From a virus, in IMG/VR virus record IMGVR_UViG_3300020579_000008, positions 1-64,000 of that record: 64,000 nucleotides of DNA. One strand, 5' to 3'. Below the pieces are notes generated by a model. That model was not told the DNA's origin, searched no databases, and saw nothing but the letters and a program-made list of their open reading frames with translations. The position numbers and the translations under genes were made by a program. Within the stretch, counting starts at the first letter, position 1. Every line of letters begins with the position of its first letter. Positions 8,735-55,599 of this stretch are shown in pieces.

Positions 8735-8773
8735 GAGGGTGACTTTCACACCCTCTTGTTCGTCCTATGAAAG
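8735..8773 (+). promoter_or_regulatory. pseudoknot-type leader of the GIY-YIG gene, second stem covers the ribosome-binding site
   Basis: Stem 1 is GAGGGTG (8735-8741) with CACCCTC (8749-8755). Stem 2 is CTTTCA (8743-8748) with TGAAAG (8768-8773). The order of arms is interleaved with a 1-base first loop and a 12-base third loop, textbook H-type geometry. The 3' arm of stem 2 runs into the AAAGGGGA that serves ATG 8781, so the fold should limit translation. The same arrangement with unrelated sequence precedes four other endonuclease genes. Confidence 0.6.
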
Positions 8774-8780
8774 GGGACAA

Positions 8781-9410
8781 ATGAACGGGATAATTTACAA
8801 AGTAACAAATATTGAATCTGGAACGTCTTACATTGGACAAACCACAAAAACATTGAAACAGAGGTGGACAGAGCATATTTATGATGCCACCGGTAATAGG
8901 AGCAAGGATAAAGGATGTTATTTTCACCTTGCTATAAAGAAATATGGCCCAGAGGCATTTAAGTTGATTGTTCTGCAAGAATGCTTAAATAAAGAGGCGT
9001 TGGACTCAGTAGAAAAGTTCTATATTTCCCATTTTAATACGGTTCGTCCCTTTGGTTATAATTTGTCTCTCGGAGGCTCTGGAGTAATGCACGGTAGGAA
9101 AATGAGTGCAGAAGCCAGAGCAAAAATTAGCGCGGGGCTTATGGGAAGACCGGGAGCACAATTTAGTCATACCCCAGAAGCCAGAGCAAAAATAAGCGCA
9201 TCCCTTATGGGTAACAAAAGGTCAGTAGGTAGAAAACTTTCAGATGAAACTAAGGCTAAGATGAGAGCCGCTCATTTAGGAAGAACCTACAAAAAGAAAG
9301 ACAAAAGTTTAGATTCAAGCAACGATGCTCATGATAGTGGCGAAAACACTTTAAATATGCGGATTGAGAAAGTTGCGAGTACTAAAGATGACTCAGCGAT
9401 AGGCCAGTAA
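8781..9410 (+). CDS. GIY-YIG homing endonuclease with NUMOD3 repeats
   Basis: 209 residues from ATG 8781 with AAGGGGA upstream. The N-terminal GIIYKVTN(x)6SYIGQTTKTLKQRW is the GIY-YIG catalytic motif (GIY seen as IIY, YIG intact, Arg present), and the conserved Glu lies in the helix ending EKFYISHF. After residue 100, repeated SAEARAKIS and TPEARAKIS elements are NUMOD3 DNA-binding motifs. It is free-standing and ends 57 bases before the intron-riddled capsid gene, so it may drive spread of the capsid introns. It is probably a mobile gene unrelated to virion assembly. Confidence 0.88.
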   Translation: MNGIIYKVTNIESGTSYIGQTTKTLKQRWTEHIYDATGNRSKDKGCYFHLAIKKYGPEAFKLIVLQECLNKEALDSVEKFYISHFNTVRPFGYNLSLGGSGVMHGRKMSAEARAKISAGLMGRPGAQFSHTPEARAKISASLMGNKRSVGRKLSDETKAKMRAAHLGRTYKKKDKSLDSSNDAHDSGENTLNMRIEKVASTKDDSAIGQ

Positions 9411-9467
9411 AATAACTCAGAGGTTTTACTACGTGGCACTTCGTAGTACAGAAGGAAAATAATAACT

Positions 9468-11737
9468 ATGCCATTACTTGAGGCTGCTGTAGAAGCAGTC
9501 GAACTTGATGCATTTGCTAAGGAAATCCCTAGGTAATAAGGTCGGGGATTTTATGCCAAAAATACTTAGGACCTAGTATTTCATGGAACTACAGCATATT
9601 CCATGTTCAAGGCAGAGGCTCAATATTAGGGCCTCGATAAACCCGCTCTAATTGTCTCGAAATCTGAAATGACAACGAGGCGGAAGTCAAGTTTATTTGT
9701 AACAAAACTTGACACCGTGAGAGATCAAGCGAGAGGGAGCCAAAAGGCTATGCAATGATCCGAGCTGCATGAAACAGTAACATGCAGAGGTTAGCAGAAA
9801 TGACTAATCCAAAATACAGTAACAAAGCTGACTAATATTCCTGTGAGCAATCAGTCACAGGCAGGCGGAGTAACTCGTCCGTCATTCCGCATCCCGTTTA
9901 GGGTGCAGGCTGGCGCGTCTATCTCCCAGGGAACCGGAAATGCCGACTCCATGAACCGAGGCACTGGAAGTAAATGGGCTTCCTTTGCGCTAGCACCTGT
10001 TTACCTATTTAACGTCTAAAAATTTCATGGACGTTTAAAATTTCGCTGTATCGGTGGAACGCCTGAAAAGGCCAATACCGAGGCAACCTGCCTAGGCAGA
10101 GAGTCCGTAACGACTACACGCGAAACAGGCATAACGCTTGATGATATAGTCTGAACTGCATGGTAACATGCAGAAGGCAGCAGAAATGACTGCCTCATAA
10201 CCTAAAGTTATGTAACAATTTTTGGTGAAATTTCCTGGCTCGCCCAGGCTTCCACGGATAGCAAGCAACGCGGTCTCTTCGCCGTAAAAGCCCAGGAGAT
10301 GAAGAACTCTTTGGATGCTGCAATGCAGGGCATCGAGGGGTTAATAAATTCCGACGGGAGTGGTATGATCGACCAAATCCCGGCCACCGCAGTCATTAAC
10401 AACGGTACGGGTACTGGTGACAGTACCTCCAGCATCGTTGGGATGAACGTGGCGGTAGCATTCACCGACCAACAGACGGTAACGTTCTGGACGGTTGGTG
10501 GTGTTCAGCGTACGACCGGCGTATCCTCGGCAGTAGTTAGCTACTCCGATGGACCGAGCAACACTTTGTTCTTCAGCACCGCCCTACCGACCGGTGTGGC
10601 AGTAACGGATTACATCGTGGTGAACGGCGCGACCTACGGCTCTGGTGCCTCTATTTTGGGCATCAAGGCTTGGGACGTGAACAGCAATACCGGGAGTATC
10701 GCCGGGCTTAACCGAGCGACTTACCCAGGCCGTCTTAGCACGCCTACCATTAACTTGGCGGGTGCCGCTATTACGCCAGGCATTGCCCAGCGAGCAGAAG
10801 TGCTCCTAGGCCGTGCGTTGGGTCCTGATGCCGACAGCATTAAGTCCGGCATTTGGTATGGGCCGCCCGAGCAAGCCTTTGCGCAGAGCAATCTGATGTG
10901 AACTAAACGCATCATCAACTGGTAACAGTTGAAAGTAAACCAAGAGAATTCGGTGGAACACCCAATAAGGTCAATACCGAGCCGAGCCTGTTAGCGCAGG
11001 AAGGTGTAACGACTATCTCGAAAGAGAGTAGGGTCTAAGTAGACTCGAAGCACTTGGCACCCGTAAGGGTTGAAGATATAGTCTGTTCTCGCAGGTAACT
11101 GTGAGAGGGTAAGCGGAAACGGCTTGCCCGCAACGAACAAGACAACGTTCAAATTGCGAACGCACAGGAAATCAAGGGCGATAAAACGCTAGACATGTCC
11201 AAGAAGTATTTTTCGGATTAACAATAGTCCCCTCAATCGGAAACGGTTGAATGAAAACCGAGAGAATTCAGGGAAACGCCTTAGTGGCCAATCCTGAGCC
11301 GAGCCTCAAAAGAGGAAGGTGCAACGACTATCCTGTAATGGGAGTAGGGGTCAGTGACCTCGAAGCACTTGGGACCCGTAAGGGTTATGATATAGTCTGA
11401 GCTTGTAGGTAACTACAAGAGTTTAGATGGAAACGATCTAAACGTAACGTAACTGACGTTTGGTGGCCGTAAGTATCACAAGAGTTGGACAGCAACCGCA
11501 AGCCGAATGGATTTGCTGGTGCTAGACAACTGGTACATAGGAGAGCTGTCACCGCTAGAACTGTACGATTTTGGCGGCGGCAATGTGGTAGCTCCCGTGC
11601 CCGATATTGGCAACGGGACTTCAAATGGTAGTTATCTTACCTCCCACATGTTTGCTTATAACACATGCTTCAACCTGGCTAATGCAGCTCCGCGAGCTGG
11701 CTTATACGTTCAGAATGCAGCTGTGCCAACTGTGTAG
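9468..11737 (+). CDS. major capsid protein, five exons separated by four group I introns
   Basis: Exons inferred from open frames and from P1 pairing at each 5' splice site: 9468-9530, 9828-10017, 10225-10899, 11142-11218 and 11456-11737. Joined, they give 1,287 bases and one uninterrupted frame of 428 residues. The first joint reads KEIP/LTNIPVSNQ and the last KKYFSD/TFGGRKYHKSW. Length is close to the P22 coat (about 430) and the gene follows the scaffold, the usual capsid position. The Ala/Gly/Thr-rich sequence with little charge fits a coat protein. Splice sites may be off by a few bases. The ORFs visible without splicing would otherwise look like capsid pseudogene fragments. Confidence 0.78.
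9531..9827 (+). ncRNA. group I intron 1 of the capsid gene (297 nt, no ORF)
   Basis: P1 pairs exon AATCCCT with intron GGGGATT, leaving a U-G pair at the splice site after 9530. A P7-like pair AGATCA/TGATC is seen near 9721 and 9757. This core is more diverged than in the other introns, but its 3' part (GCTGCATG..CATGCAG, then AGCAGAAATGACT) is almost the same as in intron 2. The end is placed after G 9827, which restores the frame. Confidence 0.62.
10018..10224 (+). ncRNA. group I intron 2 of the capsid gene (207 nt, no ORF)
   Basis: P1 pairs exon AACGTCT with intron GGACGTT (U-G at the splice site). The core has the P-like TCGGTGGAACGCC, Q-like AATACCGAGG, R-like GTAACGACTA and S-like GATATAGTC segments, with P7 from GACTA/TAGTC. 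A P10 helix can form between intron ATTTCA and the start of exon 3 (TGAAAT). At 207 bases it is near the lower limit for a working group I intron. Confidence 0.75.
10900..11141 (+). ncRNA. group I intron 3 of the capsid gene (242 nt, no ORF)
   Basis: P1 pairs exon TGATGT with intron GCATCA, with U-G at the splice site after 10899. P2 is CAACTG/CAGTTG. Core segments are GAATTCGGTGGAACACC, ATACCGAGCCGAGCC, GTGTAACGACTATC (about 11004-11017) and AAGATATAGTCT (about 11073-11084). It closely resembles introns 4 and 5, so these three are recent relatives. Confidence 0.82.
11219..11455 (+). ncRNA. group I intron 4 of the capsid gene (237 nt, no ORF)
   Basis: P1 is short (exon GGAT with intron GTCC, U-G at the splice site). 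P2 is CAATCG/CGGTTG. Core segments are GAATTCAGGGAAACGCC, ATCCTGAGCCGAGCC, GTGCAACGACTATC (about 11319-11331) and GATATAGTCT (about 11389-11398). The end after G 11455 joins exon 4 to exon 5 in frame. It is a sister of introns 3 and 5. Confidence 0.78.
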
Positions 11738-11788
11738 ATGTAATTGAAAACAAAGAACTTACACGCTTTTTAATTGTAAGTTTTGTAC

Positions 11789-11817
11789 TTGTACTATAAC
11801 GACGGTTATGGTATTCT
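11789..11817 (+). promoter_or_regulatory. possible sigma70-type promoter before the EndoVII gene
   Basis: TTGTAC (11789-11794), a 17-base spacer and TATTCT (11812-11817) resemble a host sigma70 promoter. It lies in the 131-base gap after the capsid gene. An inverted repeat just upstream (AACTTACA ... TGTAAGTT, about 11757-11783) may end capsid transcription, though no long T-run follows it. Confidence 0.35.
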
Positions 11818-11820
11818 AAA

Positions 11821-11861
11821 AGTGGGAGGAGACCTTGAACTTCTCCCACTATATTTCAAGG
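11821..11861 (+). promoter_or_regulatory. pseudoknot-type leader of the EndoVII gene, second stem covers the ribosome-binding site
   Basis: Stem 1 is AGTGGGAGGAG (11821-11831) with CTTCTCCCACT (11840-11850), 11 pairs including one G-U. Stem 2 is CCTTGAA (11833-11839) with TTCAAGG (11855-11861), 7 perfect pairs. The 3' arm includes part of the AAGGAG serving ATG 11869. With only 4 bases in the third loop the two stems may be alternatives rather than a full pseudoknot. Confidence 0.6.
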
Positions 11862-11868
11862 AGAACGA

Positions 11869-12396
11869 ATGGAAAGCAAAGTTTGTACCAATTGCAGTCT
11901 AGAAAAACCATTTTCTGAATTTCAAGAAAATGAAAGATATGCGGACGGGTATTCTACGTGGTGTAAGGAGTGCCATAAGCAAGCTTCTACAAAAAGTAGA
12001 AAAAAGTTATCTAAAGAAAATCCTAATTATCACAAAGATAATGCTCTTAAACACAAACATAAAATAAGTTTAGAACAGTTTGAAGAAAAGCAAGTAGAGC
12101 AGGGCGGACATTGCGCTTTGTGTTTGGCTACTAAAAGCAGTAATGGTGATAGACTAGGAGTAGACCACGATCACAGAATTTGTCCCGGAAAGTATGCTTG
12201 CGATAAGTGTCGAAGAGGTTTATTGTGCAGTTCTTGTAATGCTCGATTGGGCTACCTAGAGGGGTTTTTAGAAGAAGCTTTTGTATTTCCTTTCTTAGGC
12301 AGAGGACAGTGGATACGGAAAGCAGTAGAATACTTAAACTACTATAAGAATGCATTATATCAAGCGTCTCTTTTGGAGTCTACCCAATGCAAGTAA
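11869..12396 (+). CDS. recombination endonuclease VII-type HNH nuclease
   Basis: 175 residues. The N-terminal C-TNC-(n)-CKEC is a zinc knuckle. The C-terminal CALC..LGVDHDHRICPGK-(n)-GLLCSSCNARLGYLEG is the EndoVII core: Asp-His catalytic pair, zinc cysteines and the CN(A)RLG signature. It lies directly after the intron-bearing capsid gene and overlaps the next gene by 10 bases, typical of inserted homing genes. It may collaborate with the GIY-YIG upstream in spreading the capsid introns. Confidence 0.88.
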   Translation: MESKVCTNCSLEKPFSEFQENERYADGYSTWCKECHKQASTKSRKKLSKENPNYHKDNALKHKHKISLEQFEEKQVEQGGHCALCLATKSSNGDRLGVDHDHRICPGKYACDKCRRGLLCSSCNARLGYLEGFLEEAFVFPFLGRGQWIRKAVEYLNYYKNALYQASLLESTQCK

Positions 12397-12941
12397 CTCC
12401 TCTGACCATAAAGCAAGCTAATGAATTGATTTCCAGATTGCATCGGCACCACAAACCAGTAGTAGGACACAGATTTTCCATAGGACTTCTCAACCAAGGG
12501 GTTCTTGTAGGCGCTGCCGTAGTAGGAAGGCCAGTTGCCCGTGAAGTAGAACAATATACCATAGCAGAGGTAACTCGGCTTGTGACGGACGGAACGCCTA
12601 ACGCTTGCTCAATGCTTTATTCAGCGTGTGCACGGGCAGCCAAGGCTATGGGGTTTACGAAGATTCAGACCTATATTTTGGACAGCGAACCGGGAACTAG
12701 TTTAAAAGCCTCTGGCTGGAAACTAGAAGGCAAAACGGCAGGCGGTAATTGGAACCATAGTTGGCGTAAGGGTCGTAGAGAAGATCAACCCATGGAACCC
12801 AAATCTAGATGGGGTTTGGTTCTAAACTCGGTAGAGGAAGTCCAATGTCAACCACCTTCTGCTTCGCCCGTGACCACGACAACAATTACAGAGAATCTCA
12901 CAAGCCTGTGCCAGGAAAATACGATGGTCTCCCCATCGTAA
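12387..12941 (+). CDS. XF1762-type, GNAT-like acetyltransferase-related protein
   Basis: 184 residues. RLHRHHKPVVGHRFSIG, VGAAVVGRPVARE, EVTRLVTDGTPNACSMLY, ARAAKAMGFTKIQTYIL and GTSLKASGWK are the conserved blocks of the XF1762 family found in many phages, with a GNAT-like plan. Homologs as I recall them end near RRxDxPxxPKxRW, so the last 35 residues here (after SRWGL) look like read-through into a neighbour frame. That tail overlaps the next gene, so the C-terminus could reflect an indel. The substrate is unknown. Confidence 0.75.
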   Translation: MQVTPLTIKQANELISRLHRHHKPVVGHRFSIGLLNQGVLVGAAVVGRPVAREVEQYTIAEVTRLVTDGTPNACSMLYSACARAAKAMGFTKIQTYILDSEPGTSLKASGWKLEGKTAGGNWNHSWRKGRREDQPMEPKSRWGLVLNSVEEVQCQPPSASPVTTTTITENLTSLCQENTMVSPS

Positions 12942-13051
12942 CCTGTGCTTGGTGTGGAAGAACTTTAGAATCTACTCAGGAGACTCAGCATGTTCATAGC
13001 GCCCAAGTTCCTCAAAGAGTACCTAAGCACTCGCAAGGCACGTCGCGCTAA
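12845..13051 (+). CDS. small protein with one CxxC motif
   Basis: 68 residues if started at ATG 12845, which has GAGGAAG upstream; the open frame extends to 12809. CAWCGRTLES is a single zinc-ribbon half. It overlaps both the preceding and the following genes in other frames, so it is among the less certain small genes here. Confidence 0.45.
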   Translation: MSTTFCFARDHDNNYRESHKPVPGKYDGLPIVTCAWCGRTLESTQETQHVHSAQVPQRVPKHSQGTSR

Positions 13052-13196
13052 TAACGCCGCCTTCTGGTCTATGATTAACGCCTATATTTACGTGCAGAAT
13101 CTTCCGTGTAGGAACAATCGAGAAGATGTGGCCGCGTCGGACGCATTGCGTATTATTCACTTAGCGCTGTTAGAGCTGGAGAAAAGCCTTAAATGA
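12990..13196 (+). CDS. small hypothetical protein (68 aa)
   Basis: ATG 12990 with AGGAGACTCAGC upstream, a leader form that recurs before several genes in this area (CAGGAGACTCA). The protein is helical with basic and aromatic residues and no recognised family. Its stop overlaps the next start (ATGA), supporting it as a real gene. Confidence 0.55.
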   Translation: MFIAPKFLKEYLSTRKARRANNAAFWSMINAYIYVQNLPCRNNREDVAASDALRIIHLALLELEKSLK

Positions 13197-13465
13197 GCGC
13201 CATCGGCTGGCTTTATAGGAAGTTTAAGATTTTTGCCCATAAGCATAATTGGCATCAGATGGAGCCAAACCCTAATCTAGAGCGCGGCAAAATTCATTAT
13301 TGGTGCCATTGGTGTGGTATCAGGGCGGTTGAAAATGTTCCGTATTTTGATTTTGAATTAAGTGTCGGAACTCTTTTAGAAAACCACGAAGCTGGTAAAA
13401 TACCCGGAATGGACATGAAAACTTATGAAAAGTACTACAAGTCTAAAATAAAGTCATTGGTATAA
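13193..13465 (+). CDS. small zinc-knuckle protein (90 aa)
   Basis: A basic aromatic N-terminus (WLYRKFKIFAHKHNWH) is followed by YWCHWCGIRAV, one CxxC pair, with nearby His that could complete a metal site. It is coupled to the previous gene by ATGA. Role unknown. Confidence 0.55.
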   Translation: MSAIGWLYRKFKIFAHKHNWHQMEPNPNLERGKIHYWCHWCGIRAVENVPYFDFELSVGTLLENHEAGKIPGMDMKTYEKYYKSKIKSLV

Positions 13466-13481
13466 ACACTCAGGAGACTCA

Positions 13482-13904
13482 ATGGAAATCACAGCAGGAC
13501 GCATAGTATTGTATAGGCTATCCGAGGTAGATGTCACGGCAATCGGTAAGCGCGGAAACGGCCACAAAGCTGGGGACATTCTGCCTATGATTGCAGTACG
13601 AGTTTGGCCAGACCAATCCGTAAACGGCCAAGTGTTTATTGATGGACAGGGAACACAGTTTGTGAATACTCGCCGGGAAGGTACCGAGGATGGTACTTGG
13701 CATTGGCCTGTGCATAAACAAGACCCAAAGCTTTATAACCATGTAGAAATTACATCCGGCGCAGGCAATTCCCCGCTTTATGGGGATAATTCAGAGAAGA
13801 TAGCCACTACTTTTGAAGTCCTAGCAGACAAATTAAAGGAGACTCAACATGCCAGCAAAAAAGAACAAAACCAAGAAAGTTGCCAGGCAATCGCCCAGAA
13901 GTAG
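13482..13904 (+). CDS. hypothetical protein (140 aa)
   Basis: Starts at ATG 13482 behind CAGGAGACTCA. The N-terminal two-thirds is beta-rich (RIVLYRL, MIAVRVWPD, VNGQVFIDGQGTQFV) and includes HWPVHK. Phage proteins with this layout are sometimes annotated only by their position near lysis genes. The C-terminal end overlaps the next gene by 56 bases. No function is assigned. Confidence 0.6.
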   Translation: MEITAGRIVLYRLSEVDVTAIGKRGNGHKAGDILPMIAVRVWPDQSVNGQVFIDGQGTQFVNTRREGTEDGTWHWPVHKQDPKLYNHVEITSGAGNSPLYGDNSEKIATTFEVLADKLKETQHASKKEQNQESCQAIAQK

Positions 13905-14181
13905 CGTAGGTTCAACCCGTACTCCTTGCACCTGCCAGTATAACCATAGAATCTCCAAGGCATTTGATGAGAGTTTCGATAAGCTAATTGGCGTGGAAGG
14001 TTTGGAAGAATACCACACGGCCTTGGTTCACTCCGATAAATTTGACGACATTATGGAAGCCTTGGGAGAAGATGATAACGATCCGTATTTGGTGATAGCA
14101 GACGCCGTGCGTATCGGTTTTGACGCAGGAAAAAGAATGAACGAGTGCGATAAGCTCGAAGCGATGGTCGGCTATAAATGA
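13849..14181 (+). CDS. hypothetical protein (110 aa)
   Basis: A Lys-rich N-terminus is followed by an acidic helical domain (FDDIMEALGEDDNDPYLVIADAV). RBS is AAAGGAGACTCAAC, the leader type of this cluster. The stop overlaps the next ATG by 4 bases. The family is not recognised. Confidence 0.55.
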   Translation: MPAKKNKTKKVARQSPRSSVGSTRTPCTCQYNHRISKAFDESFDKLIGVEGLEEYHTALVHSDKFDDIMEALGEDDNDPYLVIADAVRIGFDAGKRMNECDKLEAMVGYK

Positions 14182-31995: not shown

Positions 31996-33048
31996 ATGCC
32001 AACACTTGATTCATTATTGGGTACCGCATCAAACTTTGATGTACTTGCGGGCTCTACGGTTACAAACTCTGGAGCAACTGTTCTTACTGGAGGTGATCTA
32101 GGTCTTTCTCCTGGTTCATCTGTAACGGGCTTTCCGCCAGGCGTAGTTACTCCTCCTAATGTACAGCACATTACCGATTCTGTCGCAGCCAAGGGTCAAT
32201 CCGACCTTACTGCCGCATATACGTACTTTGCCGGATTAGCCGGAGCTACGCCTATCGTTGGAAACTTAAACGGTCAAACATTTGTTCCCGGTTTGTATAG
32301 CGGCGGCGCGATTGATCTGGCAGTAGGTGGAACCGTAACCCTTAACGGAAACGGCGACCCAACTGCGGAATTTATTTTCCAAGCCGCGTCCACTCTTACC
32401 TTCAACAACGGTTCTACTGTTGTCCTTACAAATGGTGCAACCGCCAAAAACATTATATGGCAAGTTGGAAGCTCTGCAACCATCGGAACCACGGCGGTTG
32501 TTTCTGGGGACATCGTGGCGCTGACTTCAATTTCCGTGAACACCGGGGCCACGGTCAACGGCAGATTACTCGCCAGAAACGGCGCGGTGACGTTGAGTGG
32601 TAACACTGTTACTGCCCCGGCAACTGGCGCGGGAACGGGTACGGGAGGTGGCGTAGTAGCGATAGGCACATCCTCAGCGAGTGCCACGGTGACGCTAAGC
32701 GAACTCACACACCCAGATATTACAGGAAAAAGTTTAAGATCATGGGGAGTGGTGACTATTAATCCTGGAGGTTACACAAGCGGAGGAATTCCGTTCGGAT
32801 TGATGCAGTACGCGGACCAACGTACGGTGGATTTTAATGGGTTCTTGCGTTGTGAGGTCTACGGCGAGGAACCTAAGAACAACATCATATTGGCAACTAT
32901 TGCATACCGTTATACCCCAGTCACAGATTCTCTCCAGATTTTTAATAACGGGGTAGAACTTGCCGGGGGCTCTGCTATACCAGTCTCTGTGTTATCTGAC
33001 ACCTTGCTTTTTGAGGCACAGTGGGATCGCACTAGCGTAAGAGGATAA
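31996..33048 (+). CDS. DUF3494 ice-binding-type domain fused to a virion domain
   Basis: 350 residues without a signal peptide. Residues 1-205 follow the DUF3494 ice-binding protein family closely: LLGTASNFDVLAGSTVTNSG, GGDLGLSPGSSVTGFPPG, AYTYFAGLAG, LNGQTFVPGLYSGG, DPTAEFIFQAASTLTF, IIWQVGSSATIGT, ALTSISVNTGATVNGRLLAR. Residues 225-350 are a copy of the protein encoded at 31510. Family members bind ice or act as adhesins; on a particle it could bind a surface or ice. Whether the flat ice-binding face is intact is not known. Confidence 0.85.
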   Translation: MPTLDSLLGTASNFDVLAGSTVTNSGATVLTGGDLGLSPGSSVTGFPPGVVTPPNVQHITDSVAAKGQSDLTAAYTYFAGLAGATPIVGNLNGQTFVPGLYSGGAIDLAVGGTVTLNGNGDPTAEFIFQAASTLTFNNGSTVVLTNGATAKNIIWQVGSSATIGTTAVVSGDIVALTSISVNTGATVNGRLLARNGAVTLSGNTVTAPATGAGTGTGGGVVAIGTSSASATVTLSELTHPDITGKSLRSWGVVTINPGGYTSGGIPFGLMQYADQRTVDFNGFLRCEVYGEEPKNNIILATIAYRYTPVTDSLQIFNNGVELAGGSAIPVSVLSDTLLFEAQWDRTSVRG

Positions 33049-33090
33049 TTCAACAACAATTTCCTGAGATTAATTACCTCAGGCAGCCGT

Positions 33091-33137
33091 GGGGAATGCC
33101 TACCTATGCATGGGCATTCTCCGCGCATCTTCATAGG
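33091..33137 (+). promoter_or_regulatory. pseudoknot-type leader of the EndoVII-like gene, second stem covers the ribosome-binding site
   Basis: Stem 1 is GGGGAATGCC (33091-33100) with GGCATTCTCC (33113-33122), 10 pairs with one G-U. Stem 2 is CCTATG (33103-33108) with CATAGG (33132-33137). The 3' arm of stem 2 is the start of the AGGAGA serving ATG 33147. The arms are interleaved. Confidence 0.6.
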
Positions 33138-33146
33138 AGAAAAATA

Positions 33147-33800
33147 ATGCCGCATCATAAGAATACACATTGTAAGCATGGACATGAGTACACGGTAGAA
33201 AATACAAGGATATTACCTAACGGGGCAAGAGTTTGTCGAGCATGTAAGCGTGAATGGGCAAGAGAAAACACGGGATTAGAAGAGGGGGAAGTAAAGCAAA
33301 ATAAAAATCAGAACACTGACAAAACCCATTGTCTTCGTGGTCACGAGTTTACATCGGAAAACACATACATGAAGGGCGAACGTAGGATTTGTATAATTTG
33401 TAGGAATGCCGCCCAGCGCGATAGACAAAGGATTGCAGAAGCAAAATACAGAGCGTTAAAGAAATCCAGCCCTGAATTATGGGAAAAAGAAAGACGAAGA
33501 AGAAGGGCACAACAACTTAAAAGAGTCGGTTGGAATATTGATCTTTTTGAAGAGACCCTAAACCTGCAAGAAAATAAATGCGCCGTTTGTAGAACTGTTC
33601 TAGATATTAATGCTATAAAGAACGGCGCTACTAACCAGGCTCATGCTGACCATGAGCACGTAGAGCCTCCAAAGCCTAGAGGTATTTTATGTGGCAATTG
33701 TAATTTAGGCATTGGAAATTTAAAAGAAAACCCAGAAATTATGTTGGCAGCAATTGCCTACGTAACTAAATGGAAGGAAGAGAGGTCGTACGGGCCATAA
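33147..33800 (+). CDS. recombination endonuclease VII-type HNH nuclease with two N-terminal zinc motifs
   Basis: 217 residues from ATG 33147 (AGGAGA upstream). Two copies of C-xGHE-T-ENT-(n)-R-C--C lie in the first 90 residues. The C-terminal CAVCRTVLDIN..HADHEHVEPPKPRGILCGNCNLGIGNLKENPEIM is the EndoVII core with Asp-His and zinc cysteines. The frame is open upstream to 33096, but that part lies in the leader stem. It ends 16 bases before the fifth intron and is likely its homing partner. Confidence 0.86.
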   Translation: MPHHKNTHCKHGHEYTVENTRILPNGARVCRACKREWARENTGLEEGEVKQNKNQNTDKTHCLRGHEFTSENTYMKGERRICIICRNAAQRDRQRIAEAKYRALKKSSPELWEKERRRRRAQQLKRVGWNIDLFEETLNLQENKCAVCRTVLDINAIKNGATNQAHADHEHVEPPKPRGILCGNCNLGIGNLKENPEIMLAAIAYVTKWKEERSYGP

Positions 33801-35100
33801 TTTATCGCAGTTAGGTAAGTAATTGCCTCATCAATCAGCAATGATTGTTTGTAACCTAGAGAATTCGGTGGAACACCCGATAGGGTCAATACCGAGCCGA
33901 GCCCAGAAATGGGAAGGTGTAACGACTATCTCGAAAGAGAGTAGGGAACAGCGTTCCCGAAGCACTAGGGGTCCTGCAAAGGGATCAAGATATAGTCTGG
34001 ACTTATTAGTAATAATAAGAGAGTAAGCGGACGCGGCTTATTTGTAACAATAATCGACAGCATCATTAGACGCCTTTTCTGGATTAATCACCATAGCCGA
34101 TGCAGTGGACCTCCCTGAAGGCGCGAGTCCTAGAAATTGGGACGTTCAGTTTAACGTAGGTAGCGTACGCACCAGGTCCGGTTTATTGAGCGTGTACTCT
34201 TACGCGACCACATTAATAATCACTTCCTATGTTCTTCATTACGGTATAGCAGTGTTTGGGTATACTGGCGTAGAACCAACGGTTAATGAGGGGTTTTTGT
34301 TGTCCGGTTTTATAAACAACCTTTCATATCTGAATGGCCTCCAGGTATTTGTCGTTTCCGCGACAGCAACAACCTTCTCGGTTTTCTTGCCATTTAAGGA
34401 CGACGGTCCATTTTTCAATCTCACAGGTTCTGCGGTCTCCCTTTCAGGCGCATTCGCTGGGCCTAACCTAGGCAACACCGTAACTTCCACCGGGTGGACC
34501 AACCCCAGTGGAATCCTAGGTAACGTTTCTTACGCCTCGGCAGTCGGTGGCGCAGCCTTATCAGCAACAATGGTTCCTACGGCGGCAGGAAATGAGTCGT
34601 CTAGTAATCCGGCGTGGACCGCCCCTGGCAACGTATACACTACCGGCTCGGCATTCGCCCAAGTTACTCTATCTATCGCCGCAGGTGGTGGCGGAGGGGG
34701 CGGTGGTGGTGGCGGGGGTGGAGGTGGAGGGGGTGGCGGCGGAGGCGGTTGCTTCTCCGCAGCGGTTTCCGTTCGTACCCCAGAAGGTCTTATCGAGCTG
34801 GGAAATGCGCCCGGCACTCTCCAAGTTTCTAACGAAACCGGTACGCATAGTGCGCGGCTTATCGTTCACAAGGATTACAAAGGTTGGATGGTGGTAATCG
34901 AAGAGGATAAGCTTGTCACCATAGATCACGTTATGAGGTCCGGGGATAAATGGGAACCGGCTGGGCTTAAATATCACAATCTACGCCGAGTCTGGTTCGT
35001 GGGTACGGTCTTCGATTTACACGTTATCTCCGATAATGAGGCAGATCATCACTACATACTGTGGAACGGTGACATAGCCCATAACAAACAACTAAAATAG
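33790..35100 (+). CDS. tail hub N-terminal fragment with C-terminal Hint (intein-like) module, interrupted by a group I intron
   Basis: Exon 2 (34057-35100) is open and starts TASLDAFSGLITIADA; exon 1 is proposed as 33790-33816, where an ACG codon follows GGAAGAGAGG and reads GHNLSQLG. ACG initiation is unusual and uncertain. After a beta-rich tail part comes a run of 22 glycines, then the Hint module (34750-35097, 116 residues): Cys first residue (CFSAAVSV-TPEG), block B TIDH (TxxH), VFDLHVIS and terminal AHN before KQLK. No Ser/Thr/Cys follows the Asn, so full splicing is unlikely but cleavage is possible. The next gene looks like the rest of the same tail domain. Confidence 0.7.
33817..34056 (+). 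ncRNA. group I intron 5 (240 nt, no ORF) in the tail-hub gene
   Basis: P1 pairs TTAGGT with GCCTCA-like IGS (AGGT/GCCT plus an outer pair, U-G at the splice site after 33816). P2 is CAATCA/TGATTG. Core segments GAATTCGGTGGAACACC, ATACCGAGCCGAGCC, GTGTAACGACTATC (about 33917-33930) and AAGATATAGTCT (about 33987-33998) match capsid intron 3 closely. It ends after G 34056, joining in frame to exon 2. Confidence 0.78.
34684..34749 (+). repeat. poly-glycine codon tract (22 GGN codons)
   Basis: An uninterrupted run of GGN codons encodes the linker before the Hint module. The + strand is rich in runs of three or more G, so it could form G-quadruplexes in DNA or mRNA and is prone to slippage. Opposite-strand poly-proline frames are artefacts. 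Confidence 0.8.
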
Positions 35101-39378: not shown

Positions 39379-39406
39379 TATCTCATAGCTTAGCGGCTTT
39401 GAGCTA

Positions 39407-39450
39407 GAGCTGGAACAGCCTGATACTGCTTCCAGCTCGATCTTATCAGG
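39407..39450 (+). promoter_or_regulatory. pseudoknot-type leader of the second GIY-YIG gene, second stem covers the ribosome-binding site
   Basis: Stem 1 is GAGCTGGAA (39407-39415) with TTCCAGCTC (39430-39438), 9 perfect pairs. Stem 2 is CCTGATA (39419-39425) with TATCAGG (39444-39450), 7 perfect pairs. The 3' arm of stem 2 provides the first bases of the AGGAGAG before ATG 39458. Confidence 0.62.
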
Positions 39451-39457
39451 AGAGAAA

Positions 39458-40087
39458 ATGATAGTATATTTAGTAACAAACAAACATAACGGAAAACAAT
39501 ATGTAGGGCAGACCGTAAAACCTCTTCAAACTAGATGGGCGCAGCATGGGAATGACACTTCTCATGTATCTCTCTTACGCAACGCTTTGAAAAAGTATGG
39601 AACAAATTCTTTCGTAATAGAAATTATCCATGAATGTCTGCATAAAGAAGAAATGGATTTTGTAGAAATATTCTACATTTCATTTTTGAATACTAAATCT
39701 CCTAATGGTTATAATTTAACAGACGGGGGAGAGGGAAGTTTAGGGCATACGCCTACAAAAGAAGCAAGAGTTAAAATGAGTTTGGCTAAGAAAGGATTAC
39801 TACCGCCAAAGCCCATAAAAAGGGGACAAAGGTTATCCCCGAGTACAGAAATTAAAAAGGGACAAAGATTATCTCCTAGTACTGAATTTAAAGCCGGATT
39901 TATTCCTTGGAATAAAGGTAAGTCGCATCTAAAAGGGGCGCTTAATCCTTTTTACCACAAAAAACATTCTCCCGAAGCTTTACAAAAAATGCGACTAGCT
40001 AAACTCGGTAGAAAGCAATCTCCAGAACATGTAGCTAAGAGAATGGCCAGTATATTAAAAAGGAAGGAACTAGATGGCTCACGGTGA
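39458..40087 (+). CDS. GIY-YIG homing endonuclease with NUMOD3 repeats
   Basis: 209 residues. IVYLVTNKHNGKQYVGQTVKPLQTRW is the GIY-YIG motif (here VYL and YVG) with the conserved Arg. The following helix has FVEIFYISFL with the metal-binding Glu. The C-terminal half has repeated SPEHVAKRMAS and TKEARVKMS NUMOD3 units. It is a paralog of the 8781 gene. Its end overlaps the next gene by 14 bases, so it is inserted exactly at a gene start. Confidence 0.87.
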   Translation: MIVYLVTNKHNGKQYVGQTVKPLQTRWAQHGNDTSHVSLLRNALKKYGTNSFVIEIIHECLHKEEMDFVEIFYISFLNTKSPNGYNLTDGGEGSLGHTPTKEARVKMSLAKKGLLPPKPIKRGQRLSPSTEIKKGQRLSPSTEFKAGFIPWNKGKSHLKGALNPFYHKKHSPEALQKMRLAKLGRKQSPEHVAKRMASILKRKELDGSR

Positions 40088-43293: not shown

Positions 43294-43295
43294 GC

Positions 43296-43721
43296 ATGAA
43301 TGACTCAGGGGCAGCGATTAGGGATTATAAGCCAAGCGATTTTTCAGCGATTGCCACGATTCACGAAGAGTCAGGGATTGATTATAAATTGCCCGACTTG
43401 GAATCCCCGCTATTTCTCATAAAACAGGTGGCAGAATACGAAGGAAAAGTTGTGGCGGCGCTCGGAGCCTTGCTCCAAACAGAATTTTATCTTTGGCTTA
43501 GTAAAGAAGAATGGGGAACTCCAGAGCAAAAGTTTTCTGTGCTAAAAGAATTAGATGAAAGTGTGATATCTGAAGTTTGGCTAAAAGGCGTAGATTCCGC
43601 CGTACTCTATTTACCTCCAAATATGGAACGTTTTAGTAGGAGATTAACAGAAGATTTTGGCTGGTCTACTCCGAGGCCGGGGTGGAAAGCTTTTTCAAAG
43701 ACAACTGGAAGGAAGCAATGA
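43296..43721 (+). CDS. GNAT-like acetyltransferase-type protein
   Basis: 141 residues. IRDYKPSDFSAIATIHEESGIDYKLPD is a GNAT-type opening, followed by VAEYEGKVVAALGALLQTEFYLWL (strands 2-4) and an RRLTEDFGWSTPRPGWKAF end. The acetyl-CoA pyrophosphate loop (Q/RxxGxG/A) is not clearly present, so it may be inactive or a structural use of the fold. The stop overlaps the HNH start by ATGA. Confidence 0.5.
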   Translation: MNDSGAAIRDYKPSDFSAIATIHEESGIDYKLPDLESPLFLIKQVAEYEGKVVAALGALLQTEFYLWLSKEEWGTPEQKFSVLKELDESVISEVWLKGVDSAVLYLPPNMERFSRRLTEDFGWSTPRPGWKAFSKTTGRKQ

Positions 43722-49900: not shown

Positions 49901-49913
49901 GGAAGGAATTACT

Positions 49914-50552: not shown

Positions 50553-51528
50553 GTTTTTTCTACTAGCCTGTGTACTTTCTATATGTGCGGCGGGGCAAAC
50601 TCCGACGCCGATTCGTGCCGTTACTACATTGCCCGCAACTTGCAAAGGAGGCAGCGCTACGGCTTCGACCGATGTGGTGTTTTTGATAACCGGAACATCG
50701 GGGGAGTTTTACAGGTGCTGGGCTTCCAATACGTGGGTTGTCATGGGTACCATGCCGTCTGACGGTGTACATGCCGGATCGGTACAACTAGGAGGCAATA
50801 CTACACCCCCAGTTTTGAACTCTAATATTTTTGCTTGGATTGGCCCTAATTCCAGTTCTTTTACCTCCTGGGGCATAGAGATGCCAAGTGCTGAGCCCTC
50901 CGGCACGGTTCTTTTGGCTGTAGGCGCGGCGTCTTCTCATGTGTCTCAAGGGTCATTACTTGCGTTGCAGGGCACGGGAGCCAGCGTACAAACCGCCGGA
51001 ACCGTCGCTGCCTCACAGCGTGCCGTTTGCACAGACGGAAACGCAGCGACAACTACATCTTGTCCTAAAAATGTTATGGTTTTATTTGTAACCGCCGATC
51101 AAGTTATAAGTACTACGTCCTTAAATTCAATTCCTGGATTAAGCGCAACTATTACTTCTGCTGTCCCTTCTGTTGTCTCTATGGACTGTGACATTATGTA
51201 CAGCCAGCAAACATCGGCTGTAGCCGATAATTTTGGGATATCCGATACCTCTGCCCCAACTAACATAAATGCGCAAGCATCAGAAGGTACCAACTTAAAC
51301 GGAGGCGGTCGAGTTGAGAGTAACATAATTGGGTTAACAACAACTGTGGCCACCAGCTTTGCTAATTTTACTCCGGCTGCTACTAATGTCGTATACAACA
51401 CTCAAATTCATATTTTGGCTGAACAACCGGCTTCTACGGCGGCCCTTAGTATTCTAGTATCGACCGGGAATGCTTCCGACTCGATTACGATTAAGCGTGG
51501 TAGCAAGTGCGTGGTAAATTTCCAGTAA
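50518..51528 (+). CDS. exported beta protein with signal peptide (336 aa)
   Basis: ATG 50518 overlaps the preceding fibre gene by 35 bases. The start is MRTGLSFLQTAKFFLLACVLSICAAGQ shortened: a basic n-region, a hydrophobic core (FFLLACVLSI) and an Ala-rich cleavage site. The mature part is Thr/Ser/Gly-rich beta sequence similar in style to the fibre tips here. It may be secreted by the infected cell or matured in the periplasm. Confidence 0.6.
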   Translation: MRTGLSFLQTAKFFLLACVLSICAAGQTPTPIRAVTTLPATCKGGSATASTDVVFLITGTSGEFYRCWASNTWVVMGTMPSDGVHAGSVQLGGNTTPPVLNSNIFAWIGPNSSSFTSWGIEMPSAEPSGTVLLAVGAASSHVSQGSLLALQGTGASVQTAGTVAASQRAVCTDGNAATTTSCPKNVMVLFVTADQVISTTSLNSIPGLSATITSAVPSVVSMDCDIMYSQQTSAVADNFGISDTSAPTNINAQASEGTNLNGGGRVESNIIGLTTTVATSFANFTPAATNVVYNTQIHILAEQPASTAALSILVSTGNASDSITIKRGSKCVVNFQ

Positions 51529-51538
51529 GAGACTATCT

Positions 51539-54500
51539 ATGAAAAAACTATTATATTTGCTTAGCATTTGCCTAGCCTTTTCCATATCTTCCTATGCTCA
51601 GGGACCCTTGGGGTTCGCCGCGCTTCCCACTCAGTGGGTTGACAACTCTATTTGCAATCCCCCAGGAAACGCCTACGATGTAACCATTGTGCTCGATGGT
51701 GTTACCTCCACTAACAATGGACCAAATTTAACCAGTGGGGGTATCGGATCAAAGTACCCAAACACCGTTAATGGTTTACTAGACGCCATGAATAATTGGA
51801 GAGATAACGGCGCTAATGCTAATGGTGGTAATAGTTATACAGATGCGTGGTGGCTAATTAAGATTCCGTCTGGATCACTCCTACACGGTAATACACTTGA
51901 CAGCAATCAGTCTTTGGTTACGTTACCGGGAAAGCTTAACGGTAGTACGGAACCTACAAAGTGTCTTGTATTGGAATCCACAACGCCTTTGCCTGTAGGG
52001 CAGATGGCGTGCGGTAGAGGTTTGCCCGGTTTTGGCGGGGCACGTAATCCGGGGTGTACTTCTCCAAACGACAAAGCAAACATGTGGCGTTTGCAATTAG
52101 ATGGTCCTCTTTCTGGAGTTGGCAAAACAGTTATGACCGCAGGGCAAAGTCTAATTGATCCAGCTAAGTATACCAACCACGTCGTGGTTAGGGATGTTGA
52201 ACTAACGGTGCAACCAGGCGCGGCCCAAAGCGCGGCGGGCAGTAAAGCAGTTCGATACTTTGTTGCTTTAAGCGCATTTAGCGGACAATCTGTGTTCGGA
52301 GTTGGACCAACTTTACGCCCGGAAGCCCACGTAATTGGCTTAGATCGCTATTATGCGCACGGGTGGAATCCGGGCGATCCCGGTCAACCTTCGGGAAGCG
52401 GGCCTAATGGCGCTTGCTCAGCTTGGACTAAATCTGGAACTGTTACTACAACCGACAACCACGATGGTACCTTCTTAATAACGCGTGCTACTGGAAGTTA
52501 TTTTGGTCTGACCTTTACTGTAGGGTCTCCGGTTACTATTAACGGAAACGTTTATACAATTACTAATTCTAGCGATATATTAAACGGAGTATCTAATTCT
52601 ACTTTTACGGTTTCCGGTCCCGCAATTGCTAATGGAACTTACTCCTACACGGAATCAAACCCACCGGCACAGTACGCCATAGGTTGCGGAGACGACTCCG
52701 AAGTAGGCGTCGTTTTTGACTGCGATTATTGCTGGAGAATGAACGGCTATATTGAAAAAATCCATTGGTGGGCAAACGAATCACACTCTTCGTCCCAAGG
52801 TTTTGATAACGGGCCTCAGAAGTTTGTTAACAATTGGGAAGAAGGTGGCTCGGCGGGGTGGTTTTCTGGTGGTGGTGCCGTAGATTCAAACGGTGGTCCC
52901 GGCGGCAACATGGAAATAAGGAGAAATTATTTTGGCAGGGATTTAAGTTGGAGAAATCTGTCTGCGGGTGCGGGGCAGAGCCCCAGTCCTCCGTGGGGAT
53001 GCGGCCCAATAGATGGCAACGGGTCGCATGATACCTGTCCGTTTAATTACGCTATTAAGAACTCTATAGAACTAAAGTTGGGCCATAATGTGTTAGTTGA
53101 TGGAAACATTATAGAAAATAACTGGTCCGATGCACAACCCGGCTCGGTGGTTGTTATTAATGCCCGTACGTGCTCCGGCGGATCGGTTTGTGGTATCTTC
53201 GATCCCAACAGTACGCCTCCAGGGCTGCCTAAAACAGGAATTGATAACATACGATTTTCTAATAATTGGATACGTAATTCTCCGAAAACAATTGAGATGG
53301 CCAATCGTTCTGGTATACCGGGAGAAGGGGGCGGTTTAAGTCTTCCCGTAAGGAACAACGATTTTATTAACAATGCACAAACAAACGTCGGTGACACAAA
53401 TCAGTTTGGAAATCCGGGAAATGGCTGGCAATTTGTATCTGGCTCCAATTTGTTTAATTGTAATATGTCCAGCGTCGGAACAACGGTAACGGCCTCCTGT
53501 TTCCCCGGACAAGCAGACATAACCGGCCACATCGGTAAGATTGCGAGTGTAAACAATGTAGTGACCATAACCTATACTCAGGCGCGTCTCGATCCTATGT
53601 TGTGTCTTACTACTCCGACACTTTGCATAGCTAATGGACAAACTCTTATAATATCTAAGCACCCAGGGTGGAATGGAGTGTTTGCTATGGCAGATTCTGC
53701 CGGTAAGTGGGCAGCCGATGGTACCGGAGGAAATAACATTGTTTACACAGACAATATCAACAACCCCGGAACCGCTACTTTGTGCAGCAATACTACTACG
53801 TGCGCGGCTCTATTAGGTAATGGCGATGTTGTTTACACATCCCTTGGTTACAAGCTGACTGATATATTGGTTAATGATAATGTATACGCTCACAATATAA
53901 CCAAGGCGGCGGTAATCACCAGTGTTTCTTCTAACGGTACCACCGCGTCACTTACATTGTCCGACAATACTTATACAGAGACTAACAGCTTGGTTGTCGG
54001 TCAATCAATTAGCATTTCAAAATTAACGGGTTCTAATAGTGTACTGAACTGCACCGGTTGTATAGTTACTAGTGTGTCGGGCTCTAATCCGCAAGTCGGG
54101 TTCACAGTTAGTTCCTCCGCGAATATAGTACTTAATACAACTGCGGGACAACTAGATGACAATACCTGCACCGCGAGTGGATACGCGGTCGGTTCTTCTT
54201 CCGCAAATACTACCTATGCCCAGGCCGGTACTCTACCGAACGGTTTAACTGTTGTATATACCGCGCCTTCCCCTACCGGAACCGCTAAGTGCATAATTGA
54301 AAACGGGGCCGGACAACCCAAAAACGTTACTATACAAAACAACACGGTTCTGTCTCCCAGCTTGTTTGCGATTACGTCCTTCGGACAATTTTGGCAGTCT
54401 AGCGGCAGCCGGTTCTTTAAAAACGTATTTATTACCAACGATACTGGGCGGAATTCCGATGTAACCTGTACCAATCAAGGAGGTGGGACCTCTGCTTTTA

Positions 54501-55048
54501 CTTGTTGGGACCCGAACACTTTTGAATATTGGCAAAACGTTATGCCGGGACAGCTCTCAACAGCTTGGAGTACCCCCGATCCATTAGGGTTGTGTCCGGG
54601 GTGTCTTAATTATTTCCCGCCAAATGGAAGCCCAAGTGGATTTGGTGGTGGAAGCCAGGGAGTAAACTGCGCCACCGGTACCGCTAATCCTAATTGCTTG
54701 GGATTCTCCGGGTTTATGAACGGAGCATCCGCACTGGTTACCTTCCCAACCGGGCCGTGTCCAGACGCCAATGCGCCGTATAATTGCCCGCTGATGTCTT
54801 TGCCCTACGCGGATAATTTAAGGCTGTCCCACCTTTCTTATGTCGGGTCTAGTTCGTATTCGGCATTTGGGGTTAACACGGCGCAGATGACCACGGCTAT
54901 GACACAGACCTTGTATATCTGCCCAATCGGGGCGAACTGCGGTCCCCATGGGCCTTATCCCGATGGCGGTGTTAACACCGGTCTAGGAATTAATGGGGTT
55001 ATATTGACACCGTTTACCATCCTAACATCGGGCGCGGTAGAAAAGTAA
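51539..55048 (+). CDS. large exported beta-helix-type protein (1,169 aa)
   Basis: MKKLLYLLSICLAFSISSYAQ is a strong signal peptide. The mature protein has a Trp-rich N-terminal part (ALPTQWVDNSICNPPGNAYDV) and then Asn/Gly/Thr-rich coils with DNIRFSNNWIRNSPKTIEM and NVTIQNNTVLS, typical of right-handed parallel beta-helices. Cys are frequent, which suits an oxidising compartment. It may be a polysaccharide-active spike or secreted enzyme. Catalytic residues cannot be named. Confidence 0.6.
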   Translation: MKKLLYLLSICLAFSISSYAQGPLGFAALPTQWVDNSICNPPGNAYDVTIVLDGVTSTNNGPNLTSGGIGSKYPNTVNGLLDAMNNWRDNGANANGGNSYTDAWWLIKIPSGSLLHGNTLDSNQSLVTLPGKLNGSTEPTKCLVLESTTPLPVGQMACGRGLPGFGGARNPGCTSPNDKANMWRLQLDGPLSGVGKTVMTAGQSLIDPAKYTNHVVVRDVELTVQPGAAQSAAGSKAVRYFVALSAFSGQSVFGVGPTLRPEAHVIGLDRYYAHGWNPGDPGQPSGSGPNGACSAWTKSGTVTTTDNHDGTFLITRATGSYFGLTFTVGSPVTINGNVYTITNSSDILNGVSNSTFTVSGPAIANGTYSYTESNPPAQYAIGCGDDSEVGVVFDCDYCWRMNGYIEKIHWWANESHSSSQGFDNGPQKFVNNWEEGGSAGWFSGGGAVDSNGGPGGNMEIRRNYFGRDLSWRNLSAGAGQSPSPPWGCGPIDGNGSHDTCPFNYAIKNSIELKLGHNVLVDGNIIENNWSDAQPGSVVVINARTCSGGSVCGIFDPNSTPPGLPKTGIDNIRFSNNWIRNSPKTIEMANRSGIPGEGGGLSLPVRNNDFINNAQTNVGDTNQFGNPGNGWQFVSGSNLFNCNMSSVGTTVTASCFPGQADITGHIGKIASVNNVVTITYTQARLDPMLCLTTPTLCIANGQTLIISKHPGWNGVFAMADSAGKWAADGTGGNNIVYTDNINNPGTATLCSNTTTCAALLGNGDVVYTSLGYKLTDILVNDNVYAHNITKAAVITSVSSNGTTASLTLSDNTYTETNSLVVGQSISISKLTGSNSVLNCTGCIVTSVSGSNPQVGFTVSSSANIVLNTTAGQLDDNTCTASGYAVGSSSANTTYAQAGTLPNGLTVVYTAPSPTGTAKCIIENGAGQPKNVTIQNNTVLSPSLFAITSFGQFWQSSGSRFFKNVFITNDTGRNSDVTCTNQGGGTSAFTCWDPNTFEYWQNVMPGQLSTAWSTPDPLGLCPGCLNYFPPNGSPSGFGGGSQGVNCATGTANPNCLGFSGFMNGASALVTFPTGPCPDANAPYNCPLMSLPYADNLRLSHLSYVGSSSYSAFGVNTAQMTTAMTQTLYICPIGANCGPHGPYPDGGVNTGLGINGVILTPFTILTSGAVEK

Positions 55049-55061
55049 AAAGGAGGACTAA

Positions 55062-55520
55062 GTGGGTACAAACTTAAACGACATAGCATTGGCGCTGGAA
55101 GAACGTGCACAAGAACTAGAACGGCAGAAGGCCAGCGCCGTGCACTCGCATAGAATTGAACTGGCTAAACTTAAGAAGCAAAGGGAAACCGAGCAAGCCC
55201 GCCAAGAAGCCGAGTATAGAACCAAGGTTGCCGAGCACGAGCGTATTAAACGAGAAAAAAAGGAAGCCGCAGAGAGAGAACTACGCGAGGAAGCCGTACG
55301 GCGTTCGGAGAAGGACATGGAGTACGCCAAGAAGCAGGCGGAGATAGACTTGGCGGCTAAGAAGGCGGAGGAGCTTAGGGCGCAGATGGTGGAGCTGGAG
55401 AACAACCAGGCGAAAGCCAAGCAAGCGGAACTGGACTACTTAGAAAGCCTTAAGCCAAAAGTTAACAGCGAGAGAATCATGCCGAACCCAATGCAAAGGT
55501 TCTTTCAGGCCCAAGAATAA
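55062..55520 (+). CDS. coiled-coil protein (152 aa)
   Basis: GTG start at 55062 behind AAAAAGGAGGAC. Almost the whole protein is one charged helix (Glu/Lys/Arg/Ala) with heptad periodicity, ending in ERIMPNPMQRFFQAQE. It could be a fibre chaperone or a rod-like virion piece. No family is recognised. Confidence 0.6.
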   Translation: MGTNLNDIALALEERAQELERQKASAVHSHRIELAKLKKQRETEQARQEAEYRTKVAEHERIKREKKEAAERELREEAVRRSEKDMEYAKKQAEIDLAAKKAEELRAQMVELENNQAKAKQAELDYLESLKPKVNSERIMPNPMQRFFQAQE

Positions 55521-55545
55521 TTTTAAAAAATCTCAAACTTTGATC

Positions 55546-55599
55546 GGTTTGAGCCAGGGCCTCGTTGCCCGTAAGCAGCGGGGCTCAACCTACTTACGG
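55546..55599 (+). promoter_or_regulatory. pseudoknot-type leader of the HNH gene, second stem reaches the ribosome-binding site
   Basis: Stem 1 is GGTTTGAGCC (55546-55555) with GGCTCAACC (55582-55590), 9 pairs with one bulged T. Stem 2 is CCGTAAG (55569-55575) with CTTACGG (55593-55599), 7 perfect pairs whose 3' arm supplies the first two bases of the GGAGG before ATG 55608. The arms are interleaved; the first loop is longer (13 bases) than in the other four leaders. Confidence 0.58.

Follow-up and report, generated by a model that had tools for sequence, protein, structure and literature searches.

A 64,000-nt stretch of viral DNA (positions 1 to 64,000 of the IMG/VR record IMGVR_UViG_3300020579_000008; hereafter the window) carries five homing endonuclease genes, HEG1 to HEG5, each preceded by a short leader with two interleaved stems, and leaders of the same kind stand before endonuclease genes of related phages. 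We propose that they constitute one RNA family that closes the ribosome-binding site (RBS) of mobile endonuclease genes through kissing hairpins, a reading to which we assign a probability of about 0.74. It is nearly certain that the leader structure, which covers the Shine-Dalgarno (SD) sequence, is real and under selection, and likely that the element lowers translation.

The core of the element would span about 45 nt, and 75 to 100 nt if an additional upstream hairpin, P0, is counted. Hairpin A (stem S1, arms L1 and R1, usually 11 to 14 bp, with a loop of 6 to 7 nt) would be transcribed first, its loop (L2) being complementary to a downstream segment, R2. R2 would in turn form the loop of a second, small hairpin (B), in which l3 (the segment between R1 and R2, often GACCU) and the SD-side bases that follow R2 would pair as stem S3. 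The two loops would kiss over 6 to 7 bp (S2), such that the SD would be held both by the kiss and by S3. This lock should reduce binding of the 30S subunit and keep endonuclease synthesis low, even though the genes adjoin structural genes.

An earlier note on this DNA, made from the sequence alone, had described the five leaders and their arm order, L1-L2-R1-R2, and both were seen again by a scanner blind to genes. It asked for an S1 of 6 to 14 bp, short loops and a perfect S2 of 6 bp or more, made no use of start codons, and covered both strands of the window. Among the 158 interleaved folds returned, the five leaders occupy ranks 1, 2, 3, 4 and 6 (scores -37.9, -34.5, -33.1, -32.8 and -31.2; next match -29.7), and rank 5 falls to the antisense strand of the fifth leader. 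The note had also named shuffling as a hazard for its proposal. With tighter loop limits and a score E <= -26, the real window yields 6 matches, 5 of them with an ATG 5 to 10 nt after R2, against averages of 0.285 and 0.03 in 200 dinucleotide shuffles. In local shuffles, 1, 0, 0, 0 and 0 of 1000 equalled leaders 1 to 5, respectively.

Some particulars of that description had to be amended. S1, given as 7 to 11 bp, is a genuine stem, but it measures 11 to 14 bp in the five leaders once outer pairs are counted. The fifth element holds, but the arm taken for its L1 (from 55546) is the right arm of P0, and a better S1 is formed by 55557-55568 and 55575-55586. The two interleaved stems are present as well, but a simple pseudoknot falls short, as the helix between l3 and the SD side and P0 are also part of the element. 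Finally, pairing is kept despite divergence, but the sequences are not completely different, as shared motifs appear once relatives are compared: the loop starts with CC in 63 of 80 leaders and l3 ends in GACCT in 28 of 80. L2 has 46 different sequences among these 80.

These counts come from a combined set of 91 loci of the window phage and its relatives (1.03 Mb, some loci being the same phage), which includes 79 related-phage loci (846 kb) picked via terminase relatives at 57 to 67% identity. In a gene-blind scan of the 846 kb, leaders before nuclease-like open reading frames (ORFs) dominate the top of the list. Non-redundant matches with and without an ORF number 34 and 2 at E <= -34, 70 and 14 at -30, and 84 and 47 at -26. 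Our leader table comprises 84 leaders with E <= -26 and, in addition, L145 at -24.4, which makes 85 rows. Four atypical folds with an l3 of 1 or 20 (L126:8473, L108:1486, L147:362 and one on the minus strand of L190) were dropped, as was L146, whose ORF is a spurious antisense one, leaving 80 non-redundant typical leaders; at least one leader is present in 56 of the 91 loci. Three of the 80 run off a contig end, and all 77 with a usable ORF precede a nuclease-like gene, as judged by motif or inspection and supported by Pfam and PHROG family totals.

The genes behind the leaders belong to the GIY-YIG, endonuclease VII and HNH families and, by inspection, in one case to PD-(D/E)XK, in line with the note's view that the element is not tied to one protein family. 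For the 81 distinct downstream proteins (set A3, one empty entry left out), Pfam totals at E <= 0.01 are 22 for endonuclease VII, 13 for GIY-YIG, 8 for HNH, 7 for HNH_5, 4 for HNH_3, 2 for MUG113 and 2 for SprT-like; the Pfam and PHROG scans are totals per family and carry no verdict per protein, and the non-nucleases found by inspection are those of the five dropped rows. L188:11793 is an HNH_3-like gene, and L123:632 (PD-(D/E)XK-like) and L188:13226 are nucleases by inspection only, with no Pfam nuclease match. A longer assembly of the window phage (IMGVR_UViG_3300050821_006485, 101 kb, identical over the 21 kb compared) contains, beyond the window, a third GIY-YIG match (E=9.6e-4, below the Pfam cut-off); directly before it lies a sixth leader, the best match in that 12-kb stretch.

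The pairing itself was examined in two ways. The clean test of S2 uses 209 hairpins picked by S1 and a nearby ORF alone. Complementarity between loop and tail reaches at least 6 nt in 70 of them, against a maximum of 8 in 1000 partner permutations, and its distribution is bimodal, with 5 nt in only 4 hairpins. The second is an alignment (A4) of 54 leaders, hand-chosen out of 73 listed and all with P0, in which 90.5% of cells are paired, against 66.3% after shuffling (0/500) and at most 49.1% after sliding; the covariation score is 0.654, against 0.207 and at most 0.148. Paired cells make up 93.1% in P0, 94.4% in S1 and 83 to 85% in S2, and both sides change in 20 of 21 pairs. A4 alone is not selection-free, since its leaders were found through S1 and S2 and hand-picked for P0. 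The covariation claimed in the note is strong in A4, and the covarying matches that it expected in other phages were found among the relatives' loci.

P0 usually sits 3 nt before S1, past the stop codon of the upstream gene. Its loops fall into few classes (CTTAGCGG, ACTAATTA, CCTCGAA, GTTGCT and CTTGATCA), and its stems covary. Of the 68 leaders with P0, 57 have an ORF of 80 codons or more that ends within 160 nt upstream, and in 55 of these 57 the distance from stop codon to S1 is 11 to 45 nt (mode 28). Twelve leaders were called P0-less by script, three of which have a P0 by eye (L136:7216, L166:9197 and window 39406), and these script-called P0-less leaders have higher promoter-like scores (Mann-Whitney p = 2.8e-8). 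A promoter-like score of at least 7 is found for 8 of the 9 true P0-less leaders, against 5 of the 68 with P0 and about 5% of random stretches. In 61 of the 68, a promoter-like site is absent from the 75 nt upstream, and a strict promoter motif occurs within 250 nt of 4 of 81 leaders (background 2.6%). From this we infer that P0 belongs to a context of run-through transcription, by which the locked genes would mostly be read, and it may protect the lock from terminating ribosomes. A search with the P0 loop list, which came from the same leaders, gave 113 P0-like hairpins at redundant loci, 87 followed by a lock and 26 not; we take the latter as remnants, S1 loops themselves, or chance.

P0 also bears on whether the lock is ever opened. 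Few loop classes and covarying stems, found before different endonuclease families, are what one would expect of a true switch, in which a protein or RNA of the phage or its host would read the P0 loops and open or stabilise the lock at a set time. Combined with a portable kissing-loop lock, a common factor of this kind would make the dispersed endonucleases one post-transcriptional regulon, an extension that we put forward only tentatively. A conserved ligand pocket is not seen by inspection in S1, S2 or S3, and P0 may be merely a stable spacer, which makes the switch a possible but rather doubtful one. Three narrower candidates were rejected: autoregulation by the encoded protein via P0, as loop class does not track endonuclease family by inspection; a riboswitch, for want of a conserved pocket by inspection and of an Rfam match; and an I-TevI-like promoter inside the 5' arm, prompted by HEG2 and L022, as promoter-like sites are rare overall. 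At the site shared with L421, L186 (minus strand, near 5019 in strand coordinates) has a GIY-YIG gene with TTGACA-17-TATCCT directly before the SD; in read-through RNA, pairing between this -10 box and the SD is conceivable, an arrangement that would resemble I-TevI control.

The topology of the lock can be argued from its geometry. Both junction loops are of zero length in 68 of 85 leaders, S2 measures 6 to 7 bp in 84 of 85, R2 ends 7 to 9 nt before the start codon in 64 of 85 (and in all five window leaders), and in 79 of 80 an SD-like string falls inside the stretch formed by R2 and the 6 nt that follow. Among the helices of the element, S3 is the weakest. At least 3 bp between l3 and the bases after R2 are possible in 75 of 80 leaders, and the mean of 3.61 bp exceeds what partner permutation gives (mean 2.83, maximum 3.05 in 5000 permutations); at least 4 bp are found in 36 of 80 (permutation maximum 22), and over 48 distinct combinations the mean is 3.81 (permutation maximum 3.31). 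Perfect replacements exist, such as AATTCTC/GAGAATT, GATCT/AGATC and ACTCT/AGAGT. Since l3 pairs past R2, L2/R2 is probably a loop-loop kiss of 6 to 7 bp. By computation, two hairpins with fully paired loops of 6 to 7 nt are recovered, hairpin B being weak or absent in 5 of 80, and a single nested hairpin fails because S1 and S2 are interleaved.

A classical H-type pseudoknot, the topology of the note, would hide the SD with no real second hairpin. It accounts for S1 and S2, which are certain, and for the arm order, and it draws support from the shortness of S3 in many leaders and from its not being seen in register in window leaders 2 and 5. However, zero-length junctions fit kissing loops better, an l3 of mostly 4 to 6 nt would have to span the 11 to 14 bp of S1, and the covariation of l3 with the bases after R2 beats all 5000 permutations. 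We therefore consider the classical form unlikely as a general description, and the kissing-loop form, as modelled here, likely.

Several observations weigh against the proposed kissing lock. S3 has just 3 bp in 39 of 80 leaders and fewer than 3 in 5 of 80, window leaders 2 and 5 among them; permuted S3 partners already average 2.83 bp, so that much of the CCU/AGG pairing is plain conservation of l3 and of the SD. The outermost pair of S3 mostly fails to form in A4, and a measure of further types for S2 plus S3 is not significant (83/500). Given a weak S3 in part of the set, some leaders may be classical pseudoknots. At E <= -24, matches without an ORF are as common as those with one (86 and 90). 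Among non-redundant endonuclease-like ORFs with enough upstream sequence, 79 of 109 have the element and 30 of 109 lack it by our threshold, a share that is probably too low since the queries were mostly the locked genes themselves (truncated, as four endonuclease ORFs are fused to structural genes); by inspection, the 30 include fragments and genes that overlap the one upstream, and two of them, L160 and L121:5757, have a weaker or wobble version. Lastly, L022 and L024 are nearly identical contigs that differ by 182 nt (L022:70-251) holding a TTGACA-17-TATTCT promoter-like site, P0 and the leader's L1-L2-R1; L024 keeps the endonuclease gene without P0 and L1-L2-R1, and the lock is thus inessential for the presence of the gene.

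Leaders are exchanged between unrelated endonucleases, and leader and gene form a cassette. In L148 and L150, an identical 44 nt stands before a gene of HNH_3 type, an endonuclease VII-like one and a further gene. Among 2926 leader pairs, 6 show 90% identity or more while the proteins behind them give no phmmer match to each other at E <= 1, which bears out the suggestion that the element travels. The cassette can be seen at one insertion site: several phages have an uninterrupted site ahead of terminase (for example TAAGGACTCAGC-ATG in L158), in L020 this site has received a leader with its GIY-YIG gene, the TAG stop coming from P0, and L205 retains P0 alone, the outcome that a deletion between GGCTAG repeats would give. 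In some of these phages, the terminase gene is split into two ORFs with an interval that is possibly an intron (L017:3563 and 4316; L020:1794 and 2494). Elsewhere, endonuclease VII-like ORFs behind locked leaders continue without a frame change into the phage gene that follows, as though joined to its start (L127:5971-7134, L157:4832-5755, L164:1257-2027 and L179:8409-9245).

Such swapping, together with P0 remnants that by inspection persist after loss of gene or lock (L205, L132, L162, L136, L108 and L190:6783), could also point to a role of the leader in DNA, as a homing, recombination or insertion signal in which RNA pairing would be incidental. The near-constant spacing to the start codon, the placement on the sense strand and the SD-covering pairing would be unexpected for a DNA site, and we hold this improbable. 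A terminator, attenuator or RNA-processing site of the upstream gene, which two stable hairpins just past a stop codon might suggest, is the least probable of all, as no U-run follows S1 by inspection (the last five bases of l3 are frequently the GACCT mentioned above) and the SD complementarity would go unexplained.

Within the searched set, the element is a property of one phage group and not of endonuclease genes generally. Among 78 GIY-YIG relatives of HEG4 from IMG/VR, the leader was found in L017-L019 (near-identical contigs), L020 (once 2-nt bulges were allowed), L021 and L022, and was not found in the other 72, three of which have less than 130 nt of upstream sequence. For a second GIY-YIG subfamily (79 relatives, the best 80 among the matches listed minus the query itself), it was present in 4, three on contigs already known to have leaders, and not found in 75. 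None of 15 homing endonuclease gene leaders of phage T4 scores as the element. Being mostly absent from homologous endonucleases elsewhere in this search, the element belongs to the phage group rather than to a protein family; terminase matches in INPHARED show 24 to 25% identity among 12 listed of 80. A DNA pattern for one P0 class, run against all of IMG/VR, matched 45 stretches. Of the 40 new loci, 19 have a lock before a nuclease-like ORF, 7 on contigs new to the set; of the five previously known, four have a lock (L139, L147, L157 and L165). Remnants account for the matches in L108 and L205, and the remaining 20 seem to be chance matches. A scan of bacterial genome contigs gave at least 118 stretches; among the 118 listed, all checked, only a weak fold without an ORF was seen, in L243. 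These matches are read as chance, and on that basis carriage by a bacterial host or prophage was rejected.

With Rfam 15 (4227 families, gathering score), the window and 8 relative loci match only group I introns and tRNAs, and a lenient search of 8000-35200 gave introns only. The window has four group I intron cores in its 64 kb (10007-10173, 10890-11105, 11210-11419 and 33807-34019), the first three clustered around 10 to 11.4 kb. The last (RF00028) begins 6 nt past the HEG3 stop codon; that the leaders are part of such an intron was nevertheless rejected, as they have no Rfam match.

All features of the five window loci lie on the plus strand. HEG1 (8781-9410), a GIY-YIG and NUMOD3 endonuclease (Pfam PF01541 and PF07460; PHROG 314, homing endonuclease), has a leader at 8729-8778, with S1 8729-8741/8749-8761, L2 8743-8748, R2 8768-8773 and an S3, 8762-8766/8774-8778, over the SD. 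Read from the sequence, a P0-like hairpin, CTAGG-(CGTTATAAA)-CCTAG, at 8641-8659 carries the TAG stop of the upstream gene; its loop resembles the ACTTATAA class, and the hairpin, weaker than other P0s, was undetected by the P0 script. The gap of about 69 nt to S1 is filled with GCGAGTGC-type short repeats (8660-8725), and strings of this kind are also found at other places on this phage (L007 near 1380). HEG2 (11869-12396), of the endonuclease VII family (PF02945, E=2e-12), has its leader at 11821-11861 (S1 11821-11831/11840-11850, L2 11833-11839, R2 11855-11861, S3 not detected). A typical P0 is absent there; a weak sigma70-like promoter, TTGTAC-17-TATTCT, can be read just 5' of the leader at 11789-11817, and the promoter script picked a different weak match.

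HEG3 (33147-33800), also of the endonuclease VII family (PF02945, E=4.2e-12), follows a P0 at 33063-33083 (loop ATTAATTAC) and a leader at 33088-33140, with S1 33088-33101/33112-33125, L2 33103-33108, R2 33132-33137 and S3 33128-33130/33138-33140. HEG4 (39458-40087), again with GIY-YIG and NUMOD3 (PF01541, PF07460), has a P0 of the CTTAGCGG loop class at 39382-39403, missed by the P0 script, and a leader at 39407-39453 (S1 39407-39418/39426-39438, L2 39419-39425, R2 39444-39450, S3 39441-39443/39451-39453). HEG5 (55608-56219), an HNH-type endonuclease (PHROG 374, HNH endonuclease, E=1.1e-17; no Pfam match), has a P0 of the TTTGATCG loop class at 55532-55553 and a leader at 55557-55602, comprising the S1 given above (12 bp), L2 55569-55574(5) and R2 55593/4-55599. 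In the minimum free energy (MFE) fold, its S3 pairs CCT 55589-55591 with AGG 55600-55602 at an offset of 2, which the in-register test counts as absent. Three endonuclease-like genes that overlap the upstream gene (18481, 43718 and 62583) lack the element, as the note had said; for that at 43682/43718, neither Pfam nor PHROG gave a match, and its likeness to HNH is by eye only. The window also contains a phage gene with an ice-binding-like domain (31996-33048; PF11999, E=1.8e-50), for which tblastn against INPHARED gave no match.

Unrelated nuclease families of one phage group share one RNA design, exchanged between genes, and with such a design the control of selfish genes becomes a heritable module. 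This module makes it possible to test directly why endonucleases have to be held in check, and the element is a candidate Rfam family. Placed over an SD, kissing loops would also provide RNA engineering with a compact translational lock that can be programmed by sequence. In open-licence PubMed Central, we found no title or abstract opening describing this form before homing endonuclease genes.

Several known systems resemble the proposed lock in part. ColE1 RNA I/RNA II and TAR/TAR* form antisense kissing loops, with 6 to 7 nt loops fully paired, between two RNA molecules; here, by contrast, the kiss would form within one mRNA and include SD bases. The preQ1-I/II and SAM-II riboswitches are compact pseudoknotted 5' untranslated regions over the SD, whereas inspection of the present leaders shows no conserved aptamer sequence, and Rfam does not match them. 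The pseudoknot of T4 gene 32 mRNA is described as a phage translational operator bound by gp32, 67 nt upstream of the start codon (PMC3014915); the present leaders would likewise be pseudoknot-bearing operators, but the gene 32 pseudoknot, as presented there, does not itself hold the SD. The closest parallel lies in the stable RBS-covering RNA structures reported for I-TevI, I-TevII, I-TevIII, segB and Aeh1 mobE, and according to the same accounts late promoters of T4-type endonuclease genes yield transcripts without the RBS-covering structure (PMC2988022, PMC3014915). Both kinds place a cis RNA structure over the SD of intron-borne and free-standing endonuclease genes. The T4-type structures are described in those accounts as hairpins, unlike the two hairpins with loop-loop pairing and P0 proposed here, which would form one family common to unrelated nucleases, usually without a promoter-like site near the leader. 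The leaders would thus form a new RNA family, with a mode of action like that of the hairpins that hide the RBS in T4 endonuclease genes.

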